Assembly: GCF_001767395.1 (NCBI RefSeq)
Contig: NZ_CP017014.1
Location: 1,992,501-2,056,500 of the forward strand
Reading direction: 5' to 3'
Length of the DNA stretch: 64,000 bases
Origin: Rhodococcus sp. WMMA185
Lineage (GTDB): Bacteria; Actinomycetota; Actinomycetes; Mycobacteriales; Mycobacteriaceae
Shown: piece by piece, positions 7,669 to 53,794 of the stretch
Numbering within the stretch: the stretch's first letter is position 1
Layout: the number at the start of each line of letters is the position of its first letter
Notes under the pieces: model-generated
Seen by the model: only the letters and a program-made list of their open reading frames with translations
What the model was told of the DNA's origin: nothing
The model's database searches: none
Made by a program: the position numbers and the translations under genes

Positions 7669-10284
<2,616 letters not shown>

Positions 10285-10288
<4 letters not shown>

Positions 10289-11210
10289 GAGACAACTCCT
10301 TCGGTTGGTGAGGTCTGGATGGGCGTGGCTGTCTGGGAGGGCGTCACCATGGTGCCGATGCCCTTTCCGGTGAACAGTTCGAGAAGGACGGAATGCAGGA
10401 CGCGACCGTCGATGACGTGTGCGGTGGGTACGCCTCCGCGGACCGCGCGCAGGCAGGCCTCCATCTTGGGCACCATGCCTGCATCGAGACTCGGTAGCAG
10501 TTGCGCCAGAGCGGCGGCATCGATCTCGGTGGCCAGCGAATCGCGGTCGGGCCAGTTGGTGTAGAGCCCTTCGACATCGGTGAGGACGACGAGTTTCTCG
10601 GCGCCGATGGCTTCGGCGAGCGCGGCGGCAGCGGTGTCGGCGTTGATGTTGTGCACCACACCGTCCGAGTCGGGGGCGATCGTGGAGACGACGGGGATCC
10701 GGCCGGCCGAGATCAGGTCGAGGACAGCCTCTGGGTTCACGGTCGTCACGTCGCCGACGAGACCGATGTCGGTCGGTCGTCCGTCGACGATCACTGTCCG
10801 CTTGGTCGCAGTGAACAGGTGTGCGTCCTCACCCGAGATCCCGACGGCGTAGGGACCGTGTGCGTTGATCAATCCGACCAGCTCGCGACCGACCTGACCG
10901 AACAGGACCATCCGGACCACCTCCATCACCTCCGGTGTGGTGACCCGAAATCCGCCCTTGAATTCGCCTGTCATGCCGAGTTTTCCGAGCATGGCCGTGA
11001 TCTGTGGACCACCACCGTGCACAACGACCGGGTGGATTCCCACGGTCCGCAGAAATGCCATGTCGGCGGCGAACGCCTTCTTCAGCGCGTCGTCGATCAT
11101 CGCGTTGCCGCCGTACTTGACCACCACGACCTTGTCGCGGAGTTGCTGTAGCCACGGCAGCGCATCCGCGAGGACGTGCGCCTTCTCGTGATCGGTGATT
11201 CCCTCGAGTG

Positions 11211-43012: not shown

Positions 43013-44001
43013 TTTCGGTCACCTCCGGGTGCATCCGGCAAATGCGCGGTGCCGGGTTCGATGATGAGCGGCTTGCCCTCCGCGTCAGCGAGGGCCTGCA
43101 ACTGTCGCGCGGTCAGCTCCCGGGTCGCACCCTTCGAGAAGTACCGCTCGAGGTAGTACTGGCCGATCATCAGCAGGCTCGTGATGACCAGATACCAAGT
43201 GGCGGCCACCATCAACAACGGAATCGGCTGAAAGTTCGCCCCGGAGATTTCTCTCTGACGACCGAACAATTCGAGGGTGTATGGAACAGCAGAGACCAGA
43301 GAGGTCGTCTTGAGCATGCCGATCAGCTCGTTGCCCGTGGGCGGGATGATCACACGCATGGCCTGAGGCAGAACCGTTCGCCGCATGGTCTGCGCCCAGG
43401 TCATGCCGAGCGCCACCGATGCCTCGGTCTGCCCCTCGCCCACCGAGTTCACGCCGGCCCGGACAATCTCAGCCATGTAGGCGGCCTCGTTCAGCCCGAG
43501 GCCGATTATCGCGAACAGGAACGGCGAGTAGATTCCTTCGAGCTCGATGTGCACGAACTGGTGGACGAACGGGATACCGAGATCCAACTGCTTGTAGATG
43601 GCGGGAATCAATCCCCAAAAAACCAACTGCACGTATACCGGGGTGCCGCGGAATACCCACAGATAGATCCACGCAGCAGTCTTCAGCACGGGATTCGGCG
43701 ACAACCGCATCACCGCGAGGACGACACCCAGCACGATGGCAATCGCCATCGACAGCACGGTGAGCTGAATGGTGTTCCACGCTGCGGCCGAGATCCGTTC
43801 GTCGAACAGGTATTGAGCGTAGATGTCCCAGCGGTAGTTCTCGTTGGTCCGTGCACCATTGACGAACAGGACGAGCAACACACCGACCACGATCGCGGCT
43901 ATCCATCGACCGGGGCGCCGCAATGGGACTGCCTTGATCGGCTCCGGTTCCTCGCTCGCCGCGCTCGCCGACCCCTTGGACGTGTTCTCCGAATCAGACA
44001 C
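43009..44001 (-). CDS. Polar amino-acid ABC transporter permease
   Basis: A 330-aa HisMQ-type permease with a charged N-terminal cytosolic tail of about 30 residues, then five or more membrane spans. The EAA loop region reads [20 protein letters not shown] followed by [21 protein letters not shown], which couples to the ATPase. It starts 11 bp after the binding-protein gene. Pieces of the same gene are found twice more in this window, at 46363-46731 and in reverse at 49266-49335. Confidence 0.93.
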
Positions 44002-44012
44002 TGGTCAGCCGC

Positions 44013-44927
44013 TCAGCTCGTCGCGCCGTTGATCTGCGACGTTGTGATGACACCCTGCTCGACGCCCCAGTTCTCCGCGATCGTCTGGTAGGTGCCGTCG
44101 TCGATCAGATGCTGGAGAGCCTGCTGGAGCACCTCCGCCAAAGGCGAGCCCTTCGCAACGGGCCAGCCGTAGGGCTGGGCATCAAAAATCTCTCCGGCGG
44201 CTACGATCTTTCCCTCGCTCCGTCTGATCGCGTATCCGGTGACCGGGGAGTCTGCAGACATCGCGTCGATCCTGCCGAGAGTGAGCGCATTGGCCACGCT
44301 GTCCTGACTGTCGAACTTGACGATGTCGATGGGAGGCTGTCCGGCTGCGACACACGCCTCGCTCTTGGCAGGCACCTCCTCGATGTCCTCGATGGTGTTG
44401 GTCTGCACGCCGACCCGTAGCCCGCAGGCATTATTCGGATCCACCGACCCGCCCGCGGCCTGGGCCCACTGCACACCCGCGCTGAAGTAGGTGACGAAGT
44501 CCACCGACTCCTCACGTTCCAAGGTGTCGGTGAACGAGGAGGCGCCCGTGTCGTAACTGCCGGCCTGTATCGCCGGAATTATCCTGTCGAAGTCGGCCTC
44601 CATGAAGACCGGCGTCACACCGAGCACATCCCCGACCGCATCCATGAGGTCGATGTCGAAGCCGACGATGTTGCCGTCCGAATCCTTGAACTCGTTGGGG
44701 GCGTAGGGAACATTGACGCCGACGACAAGCTCGCCGTCAGAGGCGATCTCCTCGGGCAGCTGGGCCGCGATCGCGTCCACCTTGCTCACCTCCGGGTTTT
44801 CGCCCGCGACGGGCACGCCGCCCTCGGTGTTGGAGACGCACCCTGCAAGCAGCAGAGCACTGGCACCCACGAGTGCCCCGAGGCTGCGGGCAGTTCGGCC
44901 TCGCGTGATGACGGATTGACCAGTCAC
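44013..44927 (-). CDS. Polar amino-acid ABC transporter substrate-binding lipoprotein
   Basis: A 304-aa family 3 extracellular solute-binding protein. The signal peptide ends in lipobox LLAGC (about residue 31), so it is membrane-anchored. VVGVNVPYAPNEFKDSDGNIVGFDIDLM is the ligand-binding start typical for glutamate/glutamine/arginine binders. I prefer the GTG at 44927 (VTGQSVITRGR) because the GGAGGA site is seven bases away; it lies one base from the ATG at 44933. Its first 45 bp and upstream region are part of the duplicated segment. Confidence 0.92.
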   Translation of the reverse strand: MTGQSVITRGRTARSLGALVGASALLLAGCVSNTEGGVPVAGENPEVSKVDAIAAQLPEEIASDGELVVGVNVPYAPNEFKDSDGNIVGFDIDLMDAVGDVLGVTPVFMEADFDRIIPAIQAGSYDTGASSFTDTLEREESVDFVTYFSAGVQWAQAAGGSVDPNNACGLRVGVQTNTIEDIEEVPAKSEACVAAGQPPIDIVKFDSQDSVANALTLGRIDAMSADSPVTGYAIRRSEGKIVAAGEIFDAQPYGWPVAKGSPLAEVLQQALQHLIDDGTYQTIAENWGVEQGVITTSQINGATS

Positions 44928-46150
44928 TGGCATGTCCTCCAAGAAGATATCGTGGTGCACCGAGCAAACTACGGCGACGGAGAGCTCTCGAACTCCGAGA
45001 TTGTCAGACGGAAGCGTACGTCACCCGGATCCGCGCGCGGAATCATCGAACCTCCTCGGCCTGTCGGACAACGAAGACGGTCTTCATCGGCGGAGTGTGC
45101 GGGCGAGGACCGTCTCGGCGAATTCGGCGGTCGACGCGAGCCCACCCAGGTCCGCGGTGGCTACTCCGGAGCAGATCGTATCGCGTACCGCCTCGCTGAT
45201 CCAACGCGAAGCTGCGTTAAGGCGATGGTCGTCACGGCGATCGCCGAGCACCTCGAGCATCATTGCCGCCGACAGCATCAGCGCGGTGGGATTGGCCCTG
45301 TTCCGCCCCGCGATGTCGGGTGCAGCGCCGTGCGCCGCCTGGGCCATCACCTTGGTCTCGGAGGCATTGACCGATGGAGCCGTGCCGAGTGAGCCGGACA
45401 GTTCGGCAGTCAGGTCCGACAAGATGTCGCCGAACATGTTCTCCGTCACGATGACGTCGAAATCACGGCCTCGGCGGACAAGGTGCGCTGCCATCGCATC
45501 CACGTGCTCGTCGTCGATCCGTACGTCGGGGTAGCTGCTCTCCCCCACCTCCCGGCACACGTCGCGGAACAAACCTGTGGTCATCGACAGCACGTTCGCC
45601 TTGTGGACGATCGTGACGTGCCTACGGCGAGCACACGCGAGCGCGAATGCGGTGTGCGCGATACGCTCACACGCCTTCCTCGTCACCATCCCGACCGCCA
45701 TCGCGACATCGGGTGTCGGCATGAACTCGCCGCTACCGGCAAACATGTTCCGGTCGGCGTACAGCCCCTCGGTGTTCTCCCGGACGATCACCAAGTCCAT
45801 GTCCGTCACCATGGAGGCGACTCCCTCGAGCGAGCGAGCCGGCCGGACGTTCGCGAAGAGATCGAACCGCTTGCGCACCACTGCGCCAGGTGTCAACTGC
45901 CCCCGAAACCGTTCCGGATAACCGGCGCTGTCGTGCGGCCCGAGAATCCACGCATCGAGTTCGTCCAACGTGGCGAGAGTGGAATCGGGGATCGGGGTCC
46001 CGTGCGACTCGATAGCCTCCAACCCCACAGGCAAATCCACCCAGTCGACGTCGATGCCTGCGGCCGCGGTTGCGGCGGCGACCACGCGCTGAGTTGCCGG
46101 AACGATCTCGCGTCCGATGCCGTCACCGAGAATCACACCGATCCTCATAC
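44883..46150. repeat. 1,268-bp direct repeat, copy A
   Basis: Bases 44883-46150 recur at 49370-50637 with a constant offset of 4,487. The encoded dehydrogenases are residue-for-residue the same and I found no difference in the stretches compared. It contains the 5' end of the binding-lipoprotein gene, its upstream region and the whole dehydrogenase gene. Copy A is joined to the intact transporter. Confidence 0.92.
45084..46148 (-). CDS. Isocitrate/isopropylmalate/tartrate dehydrogenase family protein, copy A
   Basis: A 354-aa beta-decarboxylating dehydrogenase (MRIGVILGDGIGREIVPATQ; VIVRENTEGLYADRN; VTIVHKANVLSMTTGLFRDV; VTENMFGDILSDLTAEL with the metal-binding Asp). It is NAD(P)-dependent and acts on a 2-hydroxy acid. 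The nearest types are 3-isopropylmalate and tartrate dehydrogenases; it is probably not the main LeuB. The frame stays open to 46226 because an ATPase remnant is fused in frame ahead of the ATG (its residues read [13 protein letters not shown]), so a chimeric N-terminus is possible. It lies upstream of the transporter operon on the same strand. Confidence 0.88.
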   Translation of the reverse strand: MRIGVILGDGIGREIVPATQRVVAAATAAAGIDVDWVDLPVGLEAIESHGTPIPDSTLATLDELDAWILGPHDSAGYPERFRGQLTPGAVVRKRFDLFANVRPARSLEGVASMVTDMDLVIVRENTEGLYADRNMFAGSGEFMPTPDVAMAVGMVTRKACERIAHTAFALACARRRHVTIVHKANVLSMTTGLFRDVCREVGESSYPDVRIDDEHVDAMAAHLVRRGRDFDVIVTENMFGDILSDLTAELSGSLGTAPSVNASETKVMAQAAHGAAPDIAGRNRANPTALMLSAAMMLEVLGDRRDDHRLNAASRWISEAVRDTICSGVATADLGGLASTAEFAETVLARTLRR

Positions 46151-46330
46151 CGGAGTTGACCTGCTCAAGGTGGTTGATGCGGCGCAGAAACGTCGACTTG
46201 CCCGAACCGGAGGGACCGCGATGCACAAGACCTGGCCGCTCTCGATTTCGAGCGACACGCCCTTGAGTACCTCTTGAGCGCTCCGAAGTTCTTACACATC
46301 CGGTCCGCCATGACGATCGGCGTCATTCTC
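46151..46330 (-). pseudogene. 5' remnant of the ABC ATP-binding protein gene
   Basis: On the minus strand this reads as the first 50-60 codons of the ATPase at 42251-43012 (VMADRMCKNFG, then [29 protein letters not shown]) but with a 2-base insertion and a 1-base loss that break the frame. It stops abruptly at the border of the dehydrogenase repeat. It is a decayed partial duplicate. Confidence 0.85.
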
Positions 46331-46362
46331 GTTCACCTCCGGGTGCATCCGGAGGTGAACGA

Positions 46363-46731
46363 AAATGCGCCGTGTCGGGTTCGACGATGAGTGGCTTACC
46401 CTCGGCATCGGCGAGGGCCTGCAGCTGCTGCTGCTGGGGTCAGCTTGCGGGTAGCACCCTTCGAGAAGTACCGCTCAAGATAGCGCTGGCCGATCATCAG
46501 CACACTTGTGATCGCGAGATACCAAGTGGCGGAAGCGATCAACAACTGAATCGGCTGAAGGTTGGCCCCGGAGATATTTCTGGTACGGCCGTATAACTCG
46601 AGGCGATATGGAATAGCGGAGACCAGAGAGGTCGTCTTGAGCATGCCGATCAGCTCGTTGCCCGTGGGCGGAATAATCACACGCATGGCTTGAGGCAGGA
46701 CCGTTCGCCGCATGGTCTGCGACTAGGTCAC
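46363..46731 (-). pseudogene. 3' remnant of the ABC permease gene
   Basis: It reads as the last 100 or so residues of the permease at 43009 ([40 protein letters not shown]) with about 85% identity, then shifts frame near AAAAAGPRRCRG. It is followed by the ATPase remnant in the original operon order, so one event copied the permease-ATPase junction. A perfect 13-bp stem (46330-46342 with 46349-46361, CGTTCACCTCCGG) replaces the original junction sequence. Confidence 0.85.
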
Positions 46732-47087
46732 GCCGCGCGCCACCACTCTCCGTGCTGGTGCCGCACCGAGAATGCCGGTCAATACCAAAACGGTCAGAAA
46801 GAGCATCAGCGCTTGAGACCAGACACGCGGGCCTCCCCAGCCGAAACCCACTCCTGCGGAAGGCAACACACGTACGAACTCCCGAGCACTTTCGTGCATG
46901 TCGGGGGCCCAGATCTGACCGCGCGTCGTCAACGGCACTCTCACCGCCCAGTGTGGGGCAGATAATAGCGAGCGTTCTGTTTGGTGTTAGAGTCCCGGGC
47001 GTCTGTCCGGCCGCAGCGCGATGCTCACCGGACTGTCGCCAAAGTTCCACGCATGTCAGGACATCCACCTCCAGGAAGAAGTGCATC
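46732..47087. other. Region between the ABC remnants and lectin gene A
   Basis: No firm gene. A minus-strand frame 46723-46944 (73 codons from a GTG) encodes one plausible membrane span (ALMLFLTVLVLTGILG) but runs into the permease remnant and has mixed codon use; it may be another fragment. The lectin A promoter should lie about 46950-47060, where an AT-richer patch (GATAATAGCG then TGTTTGGTGTTAGAG) occurs. Confidence 0.35.
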
Positions 47088-47867
47088 TTGTATCTCACGT
47101 TACGGTCCGGATATCGGAGGGGCGCCACGCGTTTCTTCGGAGCCGTCGCGGTAGCCTCCACACTCGTGGTTACCGGCGCCAGCATCGCCGCCGCAGCCCC
47201 GTCAGTGGCCCCGTCCACCACCGAGGAGACAGCTGAACCGACCTCTGTGTCGGAGTTGCCCACACCGTCCGTCGAGCCGACCACAACACCGGAGGCCGAC
47301 ACCGAAGGTAGCGCCCCCACACCGGAGGCCGACACCGAAGGTAGCGCCCCCACACCGGAGGCCGACACCGAAGGTAGCGCCCCCACACCGGAGGCCGACA
47401 CCGAAGGTAGCGCCCCCACACCGGAGGCCGACACCGAAGGTAGCGCCCCCACACCGGAGGCCGACACCGAAGGTAGCGCCCCCACACCGGAGGCCAAGGC
47501 CGCGGGTCTTATCAATACGATTCGGAGCAACGCTACCGGGGCGTGCTTGGATTCCAGTTCATTCGGAGTCCGCGGATTTCCGTGCAATGGACTCGCATAT
47601 CAGCGTTGGAATGTAAGTCAGCTTGATTTTGCCCAGTTTGAGCTAGAGAGCCATGGGACTTGGCAGTGCCTTGACCACAACGACGCTTACGGCCTGCGAA
47701 CTAGCGAATGCCGTACTCTCTCAACAAATCAGAAATGGAACATAACGAACAAAGGCGGCTTGGAGATCAGGAACAGGGCGACCAATAAGTGTCTCGATGA
47801 CAGTGCCCTGGGTGTCCGTGTCATCACATGCAACGACACGGTGTACCAACGCTGGAGTCTTATCTAA
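47088..47867 (+). CDS. Secreted ricin-type beta-trefoil lectin with TPEADTEGSAP repeats, copy A
   Basis: A predicted exported protein of 259 aa. Residues 1-37 are a signal peptide (RSGYRRGATRFFGAVAVAS then an Ala-rich AIAAAA-type end). Residues 67-132 are six exact 11-residue repeats TPEADTEGSAP, a Pro/acid linker. Residues about 141-259 are a three-lobe ricin B-type trefoil: ACLDSSSFGVRGFPCN-YQRW, CLDHNDAYGLRTSEC-NQKW and CLDDSALGVRVITCN-YQRW, with paired cysteines per lobe. It has no catalytic domain, so a carbohydrate-binding surface or secreted role is inferred. The TTG at 47088 is chosen because the same TTG-TAT start precedes the signal peptide of copy B. The sugar specificity is unknown. 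Confidence 0.8.
   Translation: MYLTLRSGYRRGATRFFGAVAVASTLVVTGASIAAAAPSVAPSTTEETAEPTSVSELPTPSVEPTTTPEADTEGSAPTPEADTEGSAPTPEADTEGSAPTPEADTEGSAPTPEADTEGSAPTPEADTEGSAPTPEAKAAGLINTIRSNATGACLDSSSFGVRGFPCNGLAYQRWNVSQLDFAQFELESHGTWQCLDHNDAYGLRTSECRTLSTNQKWNITNKGGLEIRNRATNKCLDDSALGVRVITCNDTVYQRWSLI
47286..47495 (+). repeat. 33-bp tandem repeat array in lectin A (6 full units)
   Basis: Six identical 33-bp units beginning ACACCGGAGGCC, head to tail and in frame from 47286 to 47483, then a partial seventh to 47495. DNA identity between units is complete as far as I can read, more than protein selection alone needs, so recent slippage or homogenisation is likely. Confidence 0.95.
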
Positions 47868-47915
47868 ATCGGAAGTCCGTACTTTGCAAGAACCTTGAAA
47901 GAAGTGGAGTGCACG

Positions 47916-48665
47916 TTGTATCACAATTCATTACGCGGACACCAGTCCCGGCGCGGATATCGCAAGGGAGCCGCGCGTTTCTTCGGAGCCGTCGCAGTAG
48001 CCTCCACGCTCGTGGTTACCGGCGCCAGCATCGCCGCCGCAGCCCCGTCCACCACCGAAGAGGCAGCTGAATCGACTTCTGTGCCGGAATTGCCGACACC
48101 GTCCGTCGAGCCGACCACAACACCGGAGGCCGACACCGAAGGTAGTGCCCCCACACCGGAGGCCGACACCGAAGGTAGCGCCCCCACACCGGAGGCCGAC
48201 ACCGAAGGTAGCGCCCCCACACCGGAGGCCGACACCGAAGGTAGCGCCCCCACACCGGAGGCCGACACCGAAGGTAGCGCCCCCACACCGGAGGCCAAGG
48301 CTGCCGGCCGCATCAATACGATGCGGAACCAAGCCACCGGGGCATGTGTGGACGATAGTTCATTCGGACTCCGCGGATATGCGTGCAACGGAACCGATTT
48401 CCAACGATGGAGCTTCTTCCTTCTTGGTGATGTTAATTATCGGATTCAGAATACGGCCACTGGACGGTGCCTCGATCACAGTGAATTCGGCCTTCGGACC
48501 ATCGACTGCAACGGTGGAGGTCATCAAGCTTGGAGGGTGGTCCAACTTGGTAACAGCTACCAGATCTTGAATTTTCAGACCGCAGCCTGTCTCGATGACA
48601 GCAACCTGGGTTTACGTGCCATCGGCTGCAATAGCGGCAAGTATCAAGCCTGGAGTGTCTACTAG
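47916..48665 (+). CDS. Secreted ricin-type beta-trefoil lectin with TPEADTEGSAP repeats, copy B
   Basis: A 249-aa tandem paralog of lectin A, 48 bp downstream. The signal peptide and start of the mature protein are almost the same (GAARFFGAVAVASTLVVTG). The linker has five 11-residue repeats (residues 69-123). The trefoil domain (about 133-249) has diverged strongly: ACVDDSSFGLRGYACN-FQRW, CLDHSEFGLRTIDCN-HQAW, CLDDSNLGLRAIGCN-YQAW. Conserved 5' half plus divergent binding domain suggests selection for new ligands or gene conversion of the 5' half. The start TTG at 47916 has GTGGAG six bases upstream. A perfect 17-bp terminator follows. Confidence 0.8.
   Translation: MYHNSLRGHQSRRGYRKGAARFFGAVAVASTLVVTGASIAAAAPSTTEEAAESTSVPELPTPSVEPTTTPEADTEGSAPTPEADTEGSAPTPEADTEGSAPTPEADTEGSAPTPEADTEGSAPTPEAKAAGRINTMRNQATGACVDDSSFGLRGYACNGTDFQRWSFFLLGDVNYRIQNTATGRCLDHSEFGLRTIDCNGGGHQAWRVVQLGNSYQILNFQTAACLDDSNLGLRAIGCNSGKYQAWSVY
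48120..48296 (+). repeat. 33-bp tandem repeat array in lectin B (5 full units)
   Basis: The same 33-bp unit as in lectin A, five times from 48120 to 48284, then a partial unit. One silent C-to-T change is seen in the first unit (GGTAGTGCC). The different unit number in the two genes shows that copy number varies. Confidence 0.95.
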
Positions 48666-48720
48666 TTCGAATGAATCGAGCATACGGCCACGGGTGTAGA
48701 TCGGGGTAGATCCCGAACCG

Positions 48721-48763
48721 AATGGTGGGAACCGGACTTTGACTAGGTCCGGTTCCCACCATT
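48721..48763 (+). terminator. Terminator after lectin genes
   Basis: AATGGTGGGAACCGGAC (48721-48737) pairs over 17 bp without mismatch with GTCCGGTTCCCACCATT (48747-48763). It lies 55 bp after the lectin B stop. Confidence 0.88.
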
Positions 48764-49369
48764 GTGCGGTGTGTTCGAACGTCGCGGACCAGTGCTCGCC
48801 CACCGTTGGTTGCGGCGCGGCAGGCGGACCGACCATGACCTCGCCCCGGAGTGCGTCCTTCGCGCCCGCTCCCGACCCGACAATTTACTCGGGCGACGAG
48901 GTTCGCGTGGCCTGCAAATCCTCTACACACTTGCACCCGGCACTGACACCGTGTCCGCGTCGTCGCTCAAGCGAACACCCCACCGAACTGGAACCTCGAT
49001 GACGGTGTCCTCATTGGCTGCATTCGACCAACGCACCCCTGACCGGCACAATCACTTTTCAAATGACCACGGCACCCCCGCAATCCACCGCAACCCGGCC
49101 CACACCGAATCCGGCATCCGGCACGCGCGGAAAGGATCCCGTTCCCGCCGCCGACCGCAAGGAATGGGCCGGCCCGAAAAGCACTCCCCGCGCGGGGCAT
49201 CACGTCGTCAACCTGACCATCCGCCCGACTCGAGAGCACAACGAAGTCCCTGCCACGCAACAAGCGCCCGCAACCCGACTACGTGGCCGAGATCGTGCGC
49301 GCCGGTATGAGCTCTGTGGGCGAGGGACAGACCGGTGGCCGCACGCGGTCGGTCAGCTCGTCACGTCGA
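48764..49369. other. Scrambled region with a reversed permease fragment
   Basis: No intact gene is seen. At about 49266-49335 on the plus strand the sequence encodes YVAEIVRAG then SSVGEGQT, a clear match to the permease segment [18 protein letters not shown], here in the opposite orientation to all other copies. It joins directly (via about 34 bp) to repeat copy B. The rest (48764-49265) gives only poor overlapping frames, one of which (49063 on) reads as a Pro/Thr-rich N-terminus; I recognise nothing. Confidence 0.6.
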
Positions 49370-50637
49370 GCTGCGGGCAGTTCGGCCTCGCGTGATGACG
49401 GATTGACCAGTCACTGGCATGTCCTCCAAGAAGATATCGTGGTGCACCGAGCAAACTACGGCGACGGAGAGCTCTCGAACTCCGAGATTGTCAGACGGAA
49501 GCGTACGTCACCCGGATCCGCGCGCGGAATCATCGAACCTCCTCGGCCTGTCGGACAACGAAGACGGTCTTCATCGGCGGAGTGTGCGGGCGAGGACCGT
49601 CTCGGCGAATTCGGCGGTCGACGCGAGCCCACCCAGGTCCGCGGTGGCTACTCCGGAGCAGATCGTATCGCGTACCGCCTCGCTGATCCAACGCGAAGCT
49701 GCGTTAAGGCGATGGTCGTCACGGCGATCGCCGAGCACCTCGAGCATCATTGCCGCCGACAGCATCAGCGCGGTGGGATTGGCCCTGTTCCGCCCCGCGA
49801 TGTCGGGTGCAGCGCCGTGCGCCGCCTGGGCCATCACCTTGGTCTCGGAGGCATTGACCGATGGAGCCGTGCCGAGTGAGCCGGACAGTTCGGCAGTCAG
49901 GTCCGACAAGATGTCGCCGAACATGTTCTCCGTCACGATGACGTCGAAATCACGGCCTCGGCGGACAAGGTGCGCTGCCATCGCATCCACGTGCTCGTCG
50001 TCGATCCGTACGTCGGGGTAGCTGCTCTCCCCCACCTCCCGGCACACGTCGCGGAACAAACCTGTGGTCATCGACAGCACGTTCGCCTTGTGGACGATCG
50101 TGACGTGCCTACGGCGAGCACACGCGAGCGCGAATGCGGTGTGCGCGATACGCTCACACGCCTTCCTCGTCACCATCCCGACCGCCATCGCGACATCGGG
50201 TGTCGGCATGAACTCGCCGCTACCGGCAAACATGTTCCGGTCGGCGTACAGCCCCTCGGTGTTCTCCCGGACGATCACCAAGTCCATGTCCGTCACCATG
50301 GAGGCGACTCCCTCGAGCGAGCGAGCCGGCCGGACGTTCGCGAAGAGATCGAACCGCTTGCGCACCACTGCGCCAGGTGTCAACTGCCCCCGAAACCGTT
50401 CCGGATAACCGGCGCTGTCGTGCGGCCCGAGAATCCACGCATCGAGTTCGTCCAACGTGGCGAGAGTGGAATCGGGGATCGGGGTCCCGTGCGACTCGAT
50501 AGCCTCCAACCCCACAGGCAAATCCACCCAGTCGACGTCGATGCCTGCGGCCGCGGTTGCGGCGGCGACCACGCGCTGAGTTGCCGGAACGATCTCGCGT
50601 CCGATGCCGTCACCGAGAATCACACCGATCCTCATAC
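49370..50637. repeat. 1,268-bp direct repeat, copy B
   Basis: Second copy of 44883-46150. Here the binding-lipoprotein gene is cut off after about 15 codons, so only the dehydrogenase is complete. On the far side the flanks differ (CGGAG in copy A, TGGAA in copy B), which fixes the right border at 46150/50637. Confidence 0.92.
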
Positions 50638-50665
50638 TGGAACTGTTTGCCGTAGTACCGCTCAT
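49571..50665 (-). CDS. Isocitrate/isopropylmalate/tartrate dehydrogenase family protein, copy B
   Basis: Identical in sequence to copy A from MRIGVILGDG onward. An upstream in-frame ATG (50665) adds ten residues, MSGTTANSSS, so this copy may have the original N-terminus. The initiation region has no clear Shine-Dalgarno and the IS605-type element begins within about 20 bp, so its native promoter is probably displaced. No transporter genes follow it. Confidence 0.85.
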   Translation of the reverse strand: MSGTTANSSSMRIGVILGDGIGREIVPATQRVVAAATAAAGIDVDWVDLPVGLEAIESHGTPIPDSTLATLDELDAWILGPHDSAGYPERFRGQLTPGAVVRKRFDLFANVRPARSLEGVASMVTDMDLVIVRENTEGLYADRNMFAGSGEFMPTPDVAMAVGMVTRKACERIAHTAFALACARRRHVTIVHKANVLSMTTGLFRDVCREVGESSYPDVRIDDEHVDAMAAHLVRRGRDFDVIVTENMFGDILSDLTAELSGSLGTAPSVNASETKVMAQAAHGAAPDIAGRNRANPTALMLSAAMMLEVLGDRRDDHRLNAASRWISEAVRDTICSGVATADLGGLASTAEFAETVLARTLRR

Positions 50666-50716
50666 CGAACACCGCCCGAGAAGCCCCCGGCTTTACCCGT
50701 GGGGAGGAAAGGGCGG

Positions 50717-51112
50717 TTAGGCGTTGCGTTGGTTCTCGACATATTTCTTGACTACCTCCAGTGTTGCGCCGCCAACGGTGGCGACGAAGTATGAATTAGT
50801 CCAGAGCGTGGGGATTTTCGACTTCAGGTGCGGGAACTCCTGCCGCAGCAGCCGGGAGGACCGGCCCTTGATCTGCTTGACGAGACGATGAATCCCGTAC
50901 TGCGGATCGACCGAGACAAGCAGCTGAACGTGGTCGGGCATCGTCTCCAGCTCAACAATCGTGGCGTGCCGTTCCGAACAAACCTCCTGGATGATTTGCT
51001 TGAGTCGGTCATCGACCGCACCGCCGATGACCTTGCGTCGGTACTTCGGGCACCACACGACGTGGTAGGTGCATCGGTACACGACACCATTATTTGATCG
51101 AATCTCGGCCAT
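50717..51112 (-). CDS. tnpA: IS200/IS605 transposase TnpA (Y1), His-x-Gln variant
   Basis: A 131-aa Y1 single-strand transposase: YHVVWCPKYRRKVIGG, then MPDHVQLLV, LWTNSYFVATVGGA and VVKKYVENQ with the nucleophile Tyr124. The metal-binding HUH motif of the family (His-hydrophobic-His) reads H61-V-Q63 here. A Gln in the second place is found in some HUH relatives but is unusual for this family, so activity is uncertain. The ATG at 51112 gives the usual length; a longer frame is not needed. Confidence 0.92.
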   Translation of the reverse strand: MAEIRSNNGVVYRCTYHVVWCPKYRRKVIGGAVDDRLKQIIQEVCSERHATIVELETMPDHVQLLVSVDPQYGIHRLVKQIKGRSSRLLRQEFPHLKSKIPTLWTNSYFVATVGGATLEVVKKYVENQRNA

Positions 51113-51150
51113 AAAGAACAGTATATTGCTGAAATGTATATACTGTTCCT

Positions 51151-52308
51151 GTGATCGAGACGGTGCGCTACAACTACCGGCTGCGCCCCGGCACGCAGGC
51201 CGAACGCACAATCCTCGAAGAGTGGCACCGCTGCCGGTTCCTGTGGAACGAGGCCGTCCACCAACAGAAGTCGGGAAAGAGACCAGACCTCAAGAAGCTG
51301 GGCAAACTCCTCACCGAAGCCCGTAGCCGGAACGCATGGCTTAAAGCTGGCTCCCAAAACACCCAGCAGCAGGTACTCCGCACCTACACACAGGCCCTCA
51401 GTCACTCCTTCAGCGTGAAAGGCCGTGGGCGACCCAAGGTCAAGGCCCGGAAGAAGACGTTGCCGTCACTCGAGTACAACACTCGGGGATTCTCCATCCG
51501 TGACAACCGGTTGGTGCTGCCGAAAGGTGTCACCATTCCGGTTGTGTGGTCCCGTAACCTGCCCTCAGAACCGGCCTCCGTTCGCGTCTTCCAGGACAGC
51601 CTCGGACACTGGTACGCCTCGTTCGTCGTGCAACGCGAGGCCACACCCGCCCCCGAGGTTGACCCGGAAAGCCAGGTCGGCATCGACTGGGGCGTCACTA
51701 CCACCGCCACTACCACCGATGAAGCCCACGACCTGCCCTATTTGGGGCACCGGAAACGATGCGCCGCCGAACTCGCCAAAGCCCAGCGCAAAATGTCACG
51801 CCGGCACCGCGGTAAACGCGGACCCCAATCCAGCGGGTACCAGCGGGCGAAACGTGAGGCTGCCAGGCTGCATAAGAAAGCGGCCCGCCAAACCCAGCAC
51901 GACTCGAGGGTCTGGGCGAAGCAGGTCGCCGACAACCATCAGTTGCTCGCCGTCGAAGACTTCAAACCAAAGTTCCTGAAGAAGTCCCGGATGGCCCGCA
52001 AAGCCGCCGATGCTGCGATCGGGGCGGCGAAACGAGAACTTGTCGACCGTGGTCTGCGGGCTGGCCGGAAGGTGGTGTTGGTCAAGCCCGCGCACACGAC
52101 GATGACGTGTTCGAGTTGCTTCGCGAGAGCCAAGCAACAGCTCGAACTCGACGAACGCACTTTCCTGTGCCACTGCTGCGGTTACACCGACAGTCGGGAC
52201 AGGAACGCCGCCAAGACGATCTTGGCTGTGGCAGAACGAGGTCACACCAGCGTTGACGACATAAGACACATTCACCCCACCTCCGGGTTCGGTGAGTGTG
52301 CAGCCTGA
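51151..52308 (+). CDS. tnpB: TnpB-family RNA-guided endonuclease of the IS605-type element
   Basis: A 385-aa TnpB, ancestor group of Cas12. Catalytic RuvC residues are all present: D179 in GIDWGV, E269 in VEDF, D350 in DRNAA. The zinc ribbon TCSSC-14-CHCC lies between the last two. The basic helical N-terminal part (NYRLRPGTQAERTILEEWHR) fits the guide-RNA-binding domain. TnpB cuts DNA guided by an RNA made from the element's right end and helps keep the element at its site. The start codon is GTG. Confidence 0.93.
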   Translation: MIETVRYNYRLRPGTQAERTILEEWHRCRFLWNEAVHQQKSGKRPDLKKLGKLLTEARSRNAWLKAGSQNTQQQVLRTYTQALSHSFSVKGRGRPKVKARKKTLPSLEYNTRGFSIRDNRLVLPKGVTIPVVWSRNLPSEPASVRVFQDSLGHWYASFVVQREATPAPEVDPESQVGIDWGVTTTATTTDEAHDLPYLGHRKRCAAELAKAQRKMSRRHRGKRGPQSSGYQRAKREAARLHKKAARQTQHDSRVWAKQVADNHQLLAVEDFKPKFLKKSRMARKAADAAIGAAKRELVDRGLRAGRKVVLVKPAHTTMTCSSCFARAKQQLELDERTFLCHCCGYTDSRDRNAAKTILAVAERGHTSVDDIRHIHPTSGFGECAA

Positions 52309-52360
52309 GCTGGAAATCCCCCGGCTTAAGCCCTGGGGAACCGTTAAGGGGCCATCATTG
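52220..52360 (+). ncRNA. Putative omega-RNA (TnpB guide) at the right end
   Basis: By family rule the TnpB guide RNA overlaps the 3' end of tnpB, includes the right-end hairpin (52318-52338) and ends with a guide copied from the flank, here around 52345-52365. The hairpin is seen; the RNA itself and its boundaries are inferred. Confidence 0.45.
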
Positions 52361-52365
52361 TCTAC

Positions 52366-52887
52366 ATGGTCCAGTCTGTGGAACTGCTGTTCGACGAGGC
52401 AACCGATGTCGCCGTTCGTGCCGAGTGGCAGCGGCTATGGGATGCGGGTCTACCCAGTCGATCCCGCGTTCGCGCTGTGTCGAATCGACCACACATCACC
52501 TTGTTCGTGGCCCGCCACATCCCGACCGAGATCGACGATCTCCTCGGCCGGAAAATCGCGACGCCTTCCTTTCACATCCGCCTGGGCGGTCTGGTGATGT
52601 TCGGTAGCCGGCATGTCACGTTGTCGCGCCTGGTGGTGCCGTCGAAGGCACTGCTGTCGCTACACCGCACGGTCTTCGACGTGGCGGAACGCGCCGCGGA
52701 AGTCCCCCCGCACATTCGGCCCGGGGAGTGGACGCCGCACGTGACCCTCGCGCGGCGACTTCCGGCCGATCAGATCGCGGAAGCCGCGCGGTTGCTCGAC
52801 GGCGGCGACATCATCGGTCGCGCCTCCGTGATACGCAGATGGGACGGGGACGCCAAACGTGAGTGGGTTCTCACCGCGCCCCCGTGA
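52366..52887 (+). CDS. 2H phosphoesterase (2'-5' RNA ligase/LigT-like)
   Basis: A 173-aa 2H-superfamily protein with both signature motifs, RPHITLFVA (about residue 42) and TPHVTLARR (about 125), which form the two-histidine active site for 2'-3' cyclic or 2'-5' phosphodiester chemistry. The natural substrate is unknown. The ATG is only about 25 bp beyond the right hairpin of the IS605-type element and has no good ribosome-binding site, so its original upstream region may have been replaced. It ends in a 17-bp tail-to-tail overlap with the EamA gene. Confidence 0.85.
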   Translation: MVQSVELLFDEATDVAVRAEWQRLWDAGLPSRSRVRAVSNRPHITLFVARHIPTEIDDLLGRKIATPSFHIRLGGLVMFGSRHVTLSRLVVPSKALLSLHRTVFDVAERAAEVPPHIRPGEWTPHVTLARRLPADQIAEAARLLDGGDIIGRASVIRRWDGDAKREWVLTAPP

Positions 52888-53794
52888 TCATGATGCGCCC
52901 TCGAGTCATCGCATTCGTGGACATTCGCGACGCTCGTTGTGTGACAACGATTCCCGCGATCACGACCAGCGCTCCCACCGGATGGTTCCAGGAGATGCTC
53001 TCCCCGAGCACGACGGCACCGAGCACTATCCCGAACAGCGGGGTCAGGTAGGTGACGGTAGACGCGGCGGTCGGGCCCCAACCACGAACCACGTTGGTAT
53101 TCCAGACGAACGCCAGTCCGGTGCCGAATACTCCGAGCCCGATCATCGACGCAACGACCGCGGGCGTCAGATGCATCGGAGAACTCGCCGCCCACGGCGT
53201 TGCGACCAGCATGACCGTCGCCGCGATGGACACCTGCATGAACGCGATGGTCGGTGTGTCGACACCTCGCGGAAGTACGAAGCGGCGCAGGTAGACCAGC
53301 GCCACGCCGTACGATGCTGTCGCGCCCAGGCACGCGAGCTGCGCAGGGACACTACCGACGATGCCGGCCTGCCAAGGCGCCAGCACCACCATCACCCCCG
53401 AGAATCCGAGCAGCAGGCCGAACAGCTTTGCGTCCGTTAGCCTCTCCGAAGGAAGGAACGCCAGTGCCACAGACATCGTCATCAACGGTGTCGTCGCGTT
53501 GTAGATACTGGCAAGCCCGGAACTGATGGTCTGCTCGGCCCAACTCAGCAGCAACCACGGCACGAGGCACTGCACGACCGCGAGCACGGATAGATGCGTC
53601 CAGGTAGTTGCGTCGCCGGGCAACCGCGATCGGGTCAGGGCGACAACCACACCGAGAGTCAGCGCGCCGAGAACCAGTCTCCACAAGACGACCTGGCTGA
53701 AAGACAAGCCCTCGAGCCCGATTTTGATGAAGAGGAAGCTTGCGCCCCACGCAAGCGCCGCGCCGGCGTACTGGACCGCCAGACCCACCCTCAA
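52871..53794 (-). CDS. EamA/DMT-superfamily exporter
   Basis: About 307 residues with ten predicted membrane spans in two EamA repeats (QYAGAALAWGASFLFIKIGLEG; later ATASYGVALVYLRRFV and TVTYLTPLFGIVLGAVVLGE, the typical second-repeat end). These export amino acids or other metabolites; the substrate is unknown. I set the start at TTG 53794 because it overlaps the stop of the small upstream gene as TTGA, the layout of coupled genes. A GTG two codons on is the alternative. Confidence 0.87.
   Translation of the reverse strand: MRVGLAVQYAGAALAWGASFLFIKIGLEGLSFSQVVLWRLVLGALTLGVVVALTRSRLPGDATTWTHLSVLAVVQCLVPWLLLSWAEQTISSGLASIYNATTPLMTMSVALAFLPSERLTDAKLFGLLLGFSGVMVVLAPWQAGIVGSVPAQLACLGATASYGVALVYLRRFVLPRGVDTPTIAFMQVSIAATVMLVATPWAASSPMHLTPAVVASMIGLGVFGTGLAFVWNTNVVRGWGPTAASTVTYLTPLFGIVLGAVVLGESISWNHPVGALVVIAGIVVTQRASRMSTNAMTRGRIMITGAR

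Follow-up and report, generated by a model that had tools for sequence, protein, structure and literature searches.

Actinohivin, a three-module beta-trefoil mannose lectin from Longispora albida, has been studied as a mannose-binding antiviral protein. A constant carrier joined to variable heads under gene conversion is a general evolutionary pattern. The locus described here bears on both. In a 64,000-nucleotide stretch of the Rhodococcus sp. WMMA185 genome (contig NZ_CP017014.1, positions 1,992,501 to 2,056,500; hereafter the window), two adjacent genes, A and B, each encode a leader, a linker of tandem repeats, and a trefoil lectin domain for which actinohivin is the nearest solved structure by sequence. 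The front halves of these genes have been homogenized within each lineage, whereas their lectin heads have been separate since before the split between this strain and Rhodococcus marinonascens. The components of the pair are as follows:

47088..47867, + strand: gene A, with leader, linker repeats, and trefoil lectin; TTG start, the ribosome-binding region and TTG being conserved in the orthologue
47088..47195, + strand: putative Sec-type signal peptide of gene A, judged by eye from the sequence without a predictor
47286..47495, + strand: 33-bp tandem array of gene A (Tandem Repeats Finder: 6.4 copies, 100% match, score 420)
47508..47864, + strand: lectin domain of gene A (Ricin_B_lectin; actinohivin-like), from Pfam and structure/sequence comparison
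47916..48665, + strand: gene B, with leader, linker repeats, and trefoil lectin; TTG start
47916..48041, + strand: putative Sec-type signal peptide of gene B, likewise judged by eye without a predictor
48120..48296, + strand: 33-bp tandem array of gene B (Tandem Repeats Finder: 5.4 copies, 99% match, score 347)
48303..48662, + strand: lectin domain of gene B (Ricin_B_lectin; actinohivin-like), on the same basis as that of gene A

The two genes are separated by 48 bp. An initial annotation of the interval 47088..48665 had described adjacent genes with a common signal peptide, and this description was borne out: the leader core (22 residues, RFFG...AAA) is identical between A and B in protein (22/22) and matches at 64 of 66 positions in DNA. 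Both linkers are acidic, rich in Pro, Thr, and Glu, and composed of 33-bp units with an identical consensus in the two arrays, and the peptide unit TPEADTEGSAP occurs six times in A and five times in B. These counts agree with the annotation, which had also called the units exact; this holds for array A but not for array B, in which a single base deviates in the first unit. The ricin-type domains are as divergent as had been proposed (54 of 116 residues identical). When the gene A protein was searched against the window genome (4,444,448 bases in one contig), the matches comprised this pair only, and the Ricin_B_lectin profile matches that genome at two more places (1475870-1476280 and 3838707-3839096).

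The layout, described in the annotation as not known from rhodococci, is not confined to this strain. The pair is also present in R. marinonascens NBRC 14363 (NZ_BCXB01000009.1; locus L035, positions 9449-10132 and 10428-11126), where the leader is recognizably like that of the window, and all four reading frames of the two species are intact. Among 20 kb compared on that contig, the cassette alone matches the window (blastn E 1e-4); the pair occupies another chromosomal place in R. marinonascens. Both R. marinonascens genes have a linker built of a 66-bp unit (2.1 copies), which differs from the 33-bp unit of the window.

Informative sites indicated opposite histories for the two halves of these genes. 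In the leader core and the non-repeat start of the linker, sites that group the genes by genome, by orthologue, or crossed are in the ratio 19:0:0, whereas the ratio in the lectin half is 9:31:3. Likelihood tests agreed with these patterns. For the leader and linker, the paralogue tree is best by 52 log units (approximately unbiased [AU] test, other trees 1.3e-10), whereas for the lectin, the orthologue tree is best by 24 log units (AU, alternatives 1.9e-4). Because the front half groups by genome and the lectin half by orthologue, the front must have been homogenized in each lineage while the heads were kept separate, and the duplication that gave rise to A and B predates the species split. 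Analysis of site patterns in 60-nt blocks placed the topology switch where the repeat array ends, although the blocks over the arrays depend on the alignment and are illustrative. The homogenized tracts defined in this manner are:

47130..47495, + strand: homogenized tract of gene A, from the leader core to the end of the array
47976..48296, + strand: homogenized tract of gene B

Within a genome, synonymous divergence for the leader is 0.11 in the window and 0.05 in R. marinonascens, and that for the linker start is 0.23 and 0.05, respectively; between genomes, values for these segments range from 0.39 to 0.78. Orthologous pairing reappears at the 5' edge: the two A genes, and likewise the two B genes, agree in an 18-nt indel within their first codons, and the best alignments of the upstream regions are A with A and B with B between species, although base patterns at this edge are by themselves mixed (5:3:2). 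These patterns are most simply read as the result of gene conversion or unequal exchange, with the start region as one boundary and lectin halves too diverged to recombine as the other. The annotation had attributed linker changes to slippage. The linker does change, as the different repeat in R. marinonascens demonstrates, but slippage alone is insufficient because genes of the same genome share both the unit and the non-repeat leader DNA while the orthologue in R. marinonascens is built on a different one. Such sharing requires exchange between the genes, either by gene conversion or by unequal crossing-over.

For comparison of rates, uvrB was used as the sole core gene. The synonymous divergence between lectin orthologues is 0.72 for A and 0.57 for B, near the uvrB value of 0.47, so that the pair is about as old as the species split. 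In protein, the heads evolve about twelve times faster (nonsynonymous divergence [dN] of 0.32 versus 0.026 in uvrB). The ratios of dN to synonymous divergence (dS) are about 0.44 between the A lectins and 0.56 between the B lectins, below 1 in both cases, compared with 0.055 for uvrB.

The flanks of the pair are also shared between the two species, and two further features were recognized:

46978..46993, + strand: 16-bp upstream element TGTTTGGTGTTAGAGT, a probable promoter or regulatory site, matching exactly in both species
48721..48763, + strand: perfect 17-bp hairpin 3' of gene B, a probable terminator lacking a T run, supported by the inverted repeat and the fold z-score

The upstream element lies 110 bp (window) and 120 bp (R. 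marinonascens) upstream of gene A. With up to two mismatches allowed, it matches once in each genome, while a reversed-pattern control at the same tolerance matches one and two times; since these numbers are similar, the weight of the element lies in its exact identity and equivalent place rather than in its rarity alone. The ribosome-binding regions are common to the pairs of both species, and the hairpin also follows gene B of R. marinonascens (fold z-scores of -7.8 in the window and -4.7 in R. marinonascens). When the hairpins are read without gaps, both partners of two stem pairs are changed from one species to the other and one mismatch is present in R. marinonascens, but this covariation is not firm given that the sequence alignment sets a gap there. 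Together, the upstream element, ribosome-binding regions, and 3' hairpin indicate a two-gene unit. An invertible DNA switch was also considered and rejected: among 25 inverted repeats listed for 46600-49450, only the 3' hairpin is both long and perfect. Searches of Rfam over 44000-53000 and for tRNA genes over the whole window yielded no match.

Both heads belong to the Ricin_B_lectin family (PF00652; 46.5 bits for A and 36.2 bits for B, cut-off 29), with the QxW motifs that had been noted for them (QRW/QKW/QRW in A and QRW/QAW/QAW in B). The predicted models (predicted local distance difference test scores of 93.4 and 88.9) form three-fold beta-trefoils, and their best structural matches are trefoils. 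Taken together, these results support the annotation in that both proteins are beta-trefoil lectins of a secreted type, alike in their repeat linker and divergent in their heads. Membership in the cytolethal distending toxin A/C family (CDtoxinA, PF03498) was rejected, as both scores (17.1 and 18.4 bits) are below the cut-off of 22.

To place the heads, a tree was built from trefoils of 49 loci, of which 29 came from the class search with the full alignment, 19 came from the order search with the lectin alignment, and one was L012; 46 rows were kept at E 1e-6 and 95-150 residues. According to motif counts, 22 of these rows are Arg-type, 17 are actinohivin-type, and seven are neither. Actinohivin is not itself a row, and its motif type defines a separate group of 18 (support 99/96), outside which the four Rhodococcus lectins fall. 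These four join 16 Arg-type rows in one group of 20 with moderate support (88/87). Five of the 22 Arg-labelled rows (L116, L119, L121, L124, and L127) group elsewhere, and L112 also lies outside the Arg-type group. Both domains thus appear, at this moderate level of support, to be members of a sister group to actinohivin rather than of the actinohivin-type clade. In the tree, the Arg-type group extends to five or more further families of actinomycetes, and no report of a ligand for it was found in the open-licence literature. As side observations, four loci (L079, L084, L110, and L111) appear by eye to combine an Arg-type domain with a helix-turn-helix at the N-terminus and with a membrane segment, and may perhaps encode membrane-bound regulators with an outside sugar sensor. 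L122 has a 292-aa open frame with six Arg-type modules, possibly two tandem trefoils.

The pair has a patchy distribution. Within the genus, the gene B protein matches two of 28 genomes, namely the window's own and R. marinonascens. Within the family, where the best six or fewer candidates per genome were scored, at least 23 of 401 genomes match. Of the 21 genomes other than these two, 13 have their best match in the leader and linker (residues 1-140). The best match falls in the lectin half in only three (G189, G327, and G368), with identities of 29-38%. These 21 were not counted as relatives of the pair. At higher ranks, with the best candidates per genome scored, the lectin alignment matches at least 117 of the 397 genomes searched in the order (E 0.001) and the full alignment matches at least 73 of the 394 searched in the class, counts that include the general Ricin_B_lectin background. 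Eleven plasmid records (nine from Streptomyces and two from Streptantibioticus) match in the lectin half, reaching at most the linker end, all at less than 60% identity. The gene B protein has no match among phages, and none of the candidate stretches from viral contigs (45 and 37 for the lectin-family alignments) was confirmed. In a genome contig collection from which the window's genome is possibly absent, the full-length gene B protein gave 95 pattern-matching stretches, none of which was confirmed.

In R. marinonascens, the Ricin_B_lectin profile matches 37 times, at about 23 places spread over 19 contigs that include the one with the pair, compared with zero to six matches in each of the 27 remaining genomes of the genus; L060, L061, L063, and L068 are examples of these further proteins. 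Among four ricin-type proteins of this species scanned with Pfam (E 0.001), the domain is C-terminal in three, and the only models that match are two ricin-lectin models. This expansion was not accepted as the family of the pair, since the proteins inspected are larger and have a different, mostly QQW-type domain.

The explanation that we consider probable is a conserved two-gene unit that secretes paired, small, three-module lectins of the actinohivin sister group, with a carrier homogenized by gene conversion or unequal exchange and heads kept different. Its demonstrated steps are the anatomy, the fold by prediction, the relatedness, the opposite histories of the halves, and the shared flanks. 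The proteins would be secreted via Sec, cleaved after the AAA motif, and released outside the cell, where they may bind sugars through Asp/Asn/Arg pockets. Exchange between the genes would keep alike both the signal peptide and a disordered, acidic, Pro/Thr-rich tail, which we guess to be a solubilizing or spacing segment, possibly O-glycosylated. As the heads are kept different, they probably bind different glycans. The likely role is that of a secreted lectin pair, with three sites in each protein and a different specificity in either; our best guess is a released pair with a common soluble tail, perhaps serving as agglutinins for glycans of foreign or own origin. A bolder extension, to which we assign a low probability, is a head-swapping two-lectin cassette, in which recombination across the common leader and linker would maintain a single secretion carrier and could exchange heads between promoter-proximal and promoter-distal slots, and the invariant pocket Arg would mark an uncharacterized class that has moved from neutral mannose to acidic or other glycans.

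Among the competing explanations, the one that survives best, though we judge it unlikely, is a surface adhesin with a repeat-tuned stalk, the annotation having suggested a variable surface or secreted adhesin/lectin family; the proteins would stay membrane-bound via an uncleaved signal peptide or stick to the mycolate envelope. The order of leader, long disordered acidic linker, and binding head would suit such a role, as would the differences in repeat number and kind between species. However, reading by eye found no second membrane segment, sorting signal, lipobox cysteine, or other anchor in either protein, so both the stalk and the adhesin are unproven, and the leader end (AAA-AP) appears cleavable. 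A carbohydrate-scavenging role, with CBM13-like modules that aid a separate enzyme, is more doubtful still. Some distant trefoils (e.g., L102 and L104-L106) lie at the end of enzyme-sized open frames, as judged by eye without a domain search, but neither protein has a catalytic domain according to Pfam. Moreover, ten neighbors scanned with Pfam (transporter parts, two copies of one dehydrogenase, transposases, CoaE, DNA polymerase I, and a fragment that matches no model) include none that acts on carbohydrates.

The genomic setting suggests mobility. About 7.1 kb that includes the pair (approximately 45203-52347) is absent from the matching R. marinonascens site (L132/L133), at which the transporter on one flank and the genes downstream follow each other within 86 bp; this difference may represent an insertion in the window lineage or a loss in R. 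marinonascens. The pair is flanked by an exact 1268-bp direct repeat of an isocitrate/isopropylmalate-type dehydrogenase region (44883-46150 and 49370-50637), and recombination between the two copies would delete it. The 7.1-kb stretch contains most of both copies, a split permease fragment, and an IS200/IS605 element. In R. marinonascens, an integrase, a resolvase, a transposase, and a DUF3631 gene are found within 20 kb of the pair. In both species, the G+C content of the lectin halves is 52%, compared with 64% in the window and 62% in L035. The pair was likely translocated on mobile DNA. Further features were also observed nearby. The IS200/IS605 element (50717-52308) lies beside the lectin stretch, with a Y1 transposase and an OrfB/TnpB-type protein in divergent orientation. 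The first dehydrogenase copy (45084-46226) has, by eye, its start replaced by an in-frame ABC-ATPase fragment. Part of a second, diverged, and broken amino-acid ABC transporter copy is found at 46156-46744 (direct orientation, 86% over 590 bp) and continues for 60 bp, inverted and at 82%, on the other side of the lectins (49275-49334), which suggests an insertion plus an inversion.

Such surroundings, with the pair between direct repeats and a split permease fragment and adjoining an insertion element, together with its occurrence in so few genomes of the genus, would suit decaying mobile cargo that has no present function. We nevertheless regard this as quite improbable, considering the four intact reading frames, the lectin dN/dS below 1, and the upstream element, ribosome-binding regions, and hairpin common to both species. 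Finally, slippage within each gene combined with a recent whole-gene duplication and fast divergence of the heads under selection would fit the differing repeat numbers of A and B, the proneness of perfect short repeats to slippage, and the high lectin dN/dS, but is very improbable because the non-repeat leader DNA is homogenized too and each window lectin is nearer its R. marinonascens counterpart than its neighbor, a topology that, barring convergence of the lectin halves, rejects this history (AU p 1.9e-4).

Like other sets of paralogues with a constant carrier and variable heads homogenized by gene conversion, these tandem paralogues have opposite topologies in their two halves. No such case for bacterial lectins was found in the open-licence literature, which is weak evidence of absence, and no description of this layout was found there, including in passages of PMC11212257 and PMC11039641. 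The locus is a clean and testable bacterial case, in which a homogenized carrier and preserved divergent heads have opposite histories within a few hundred bases of one gene pair. With regard to the CBM13/R-type (ricin-B) lectin superfamily (PF00652 and PF14200), both domains exceed the Pfam cut-offs and have QxW motifs, but the Rhodococcus pair has no attached enzyme or toxin chain. The Arg-type single-trefoil lectins of other actinomycetes, which we label 'GLR', share the motif CLDxS..G(L/F/V)R..xC, whereas none of their open frames inspected has an exact-repeat linker or a tandem pair.

Similar to actinohivin, each Rhodococcus lectin is a single trefoil of about 115 residues, and the pocket Asp is found in all 12 modules of the four lectins and the pocket Asn in 11, being absent only from the second module of window gene A. 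The pocket Tyr99 of actinohivin and its residues Leu101 and Tyr108 are numbered according to PMC3498932. In contrast, the Tyr99 equivalent is Arg in 12 of 12 Rhodococcus modules, the Leu101 position is Leu in two, and the Tyr108 position is Tyr in six and Phe in three. The alignments further indicate two cysteines in every Rhodococcus module, compared with one module of actinohivin that has them, and the Rhodococcus lectins bear an N-terminal repeat tail that actinohivin does not have. The locus also points to an Arg-type sister group of actinohivin. In view of the work on actinohivin as a mannose-binding antiviral, such a changed-pocket relative provides a useful comparison for the evolution of specificity on this fold.
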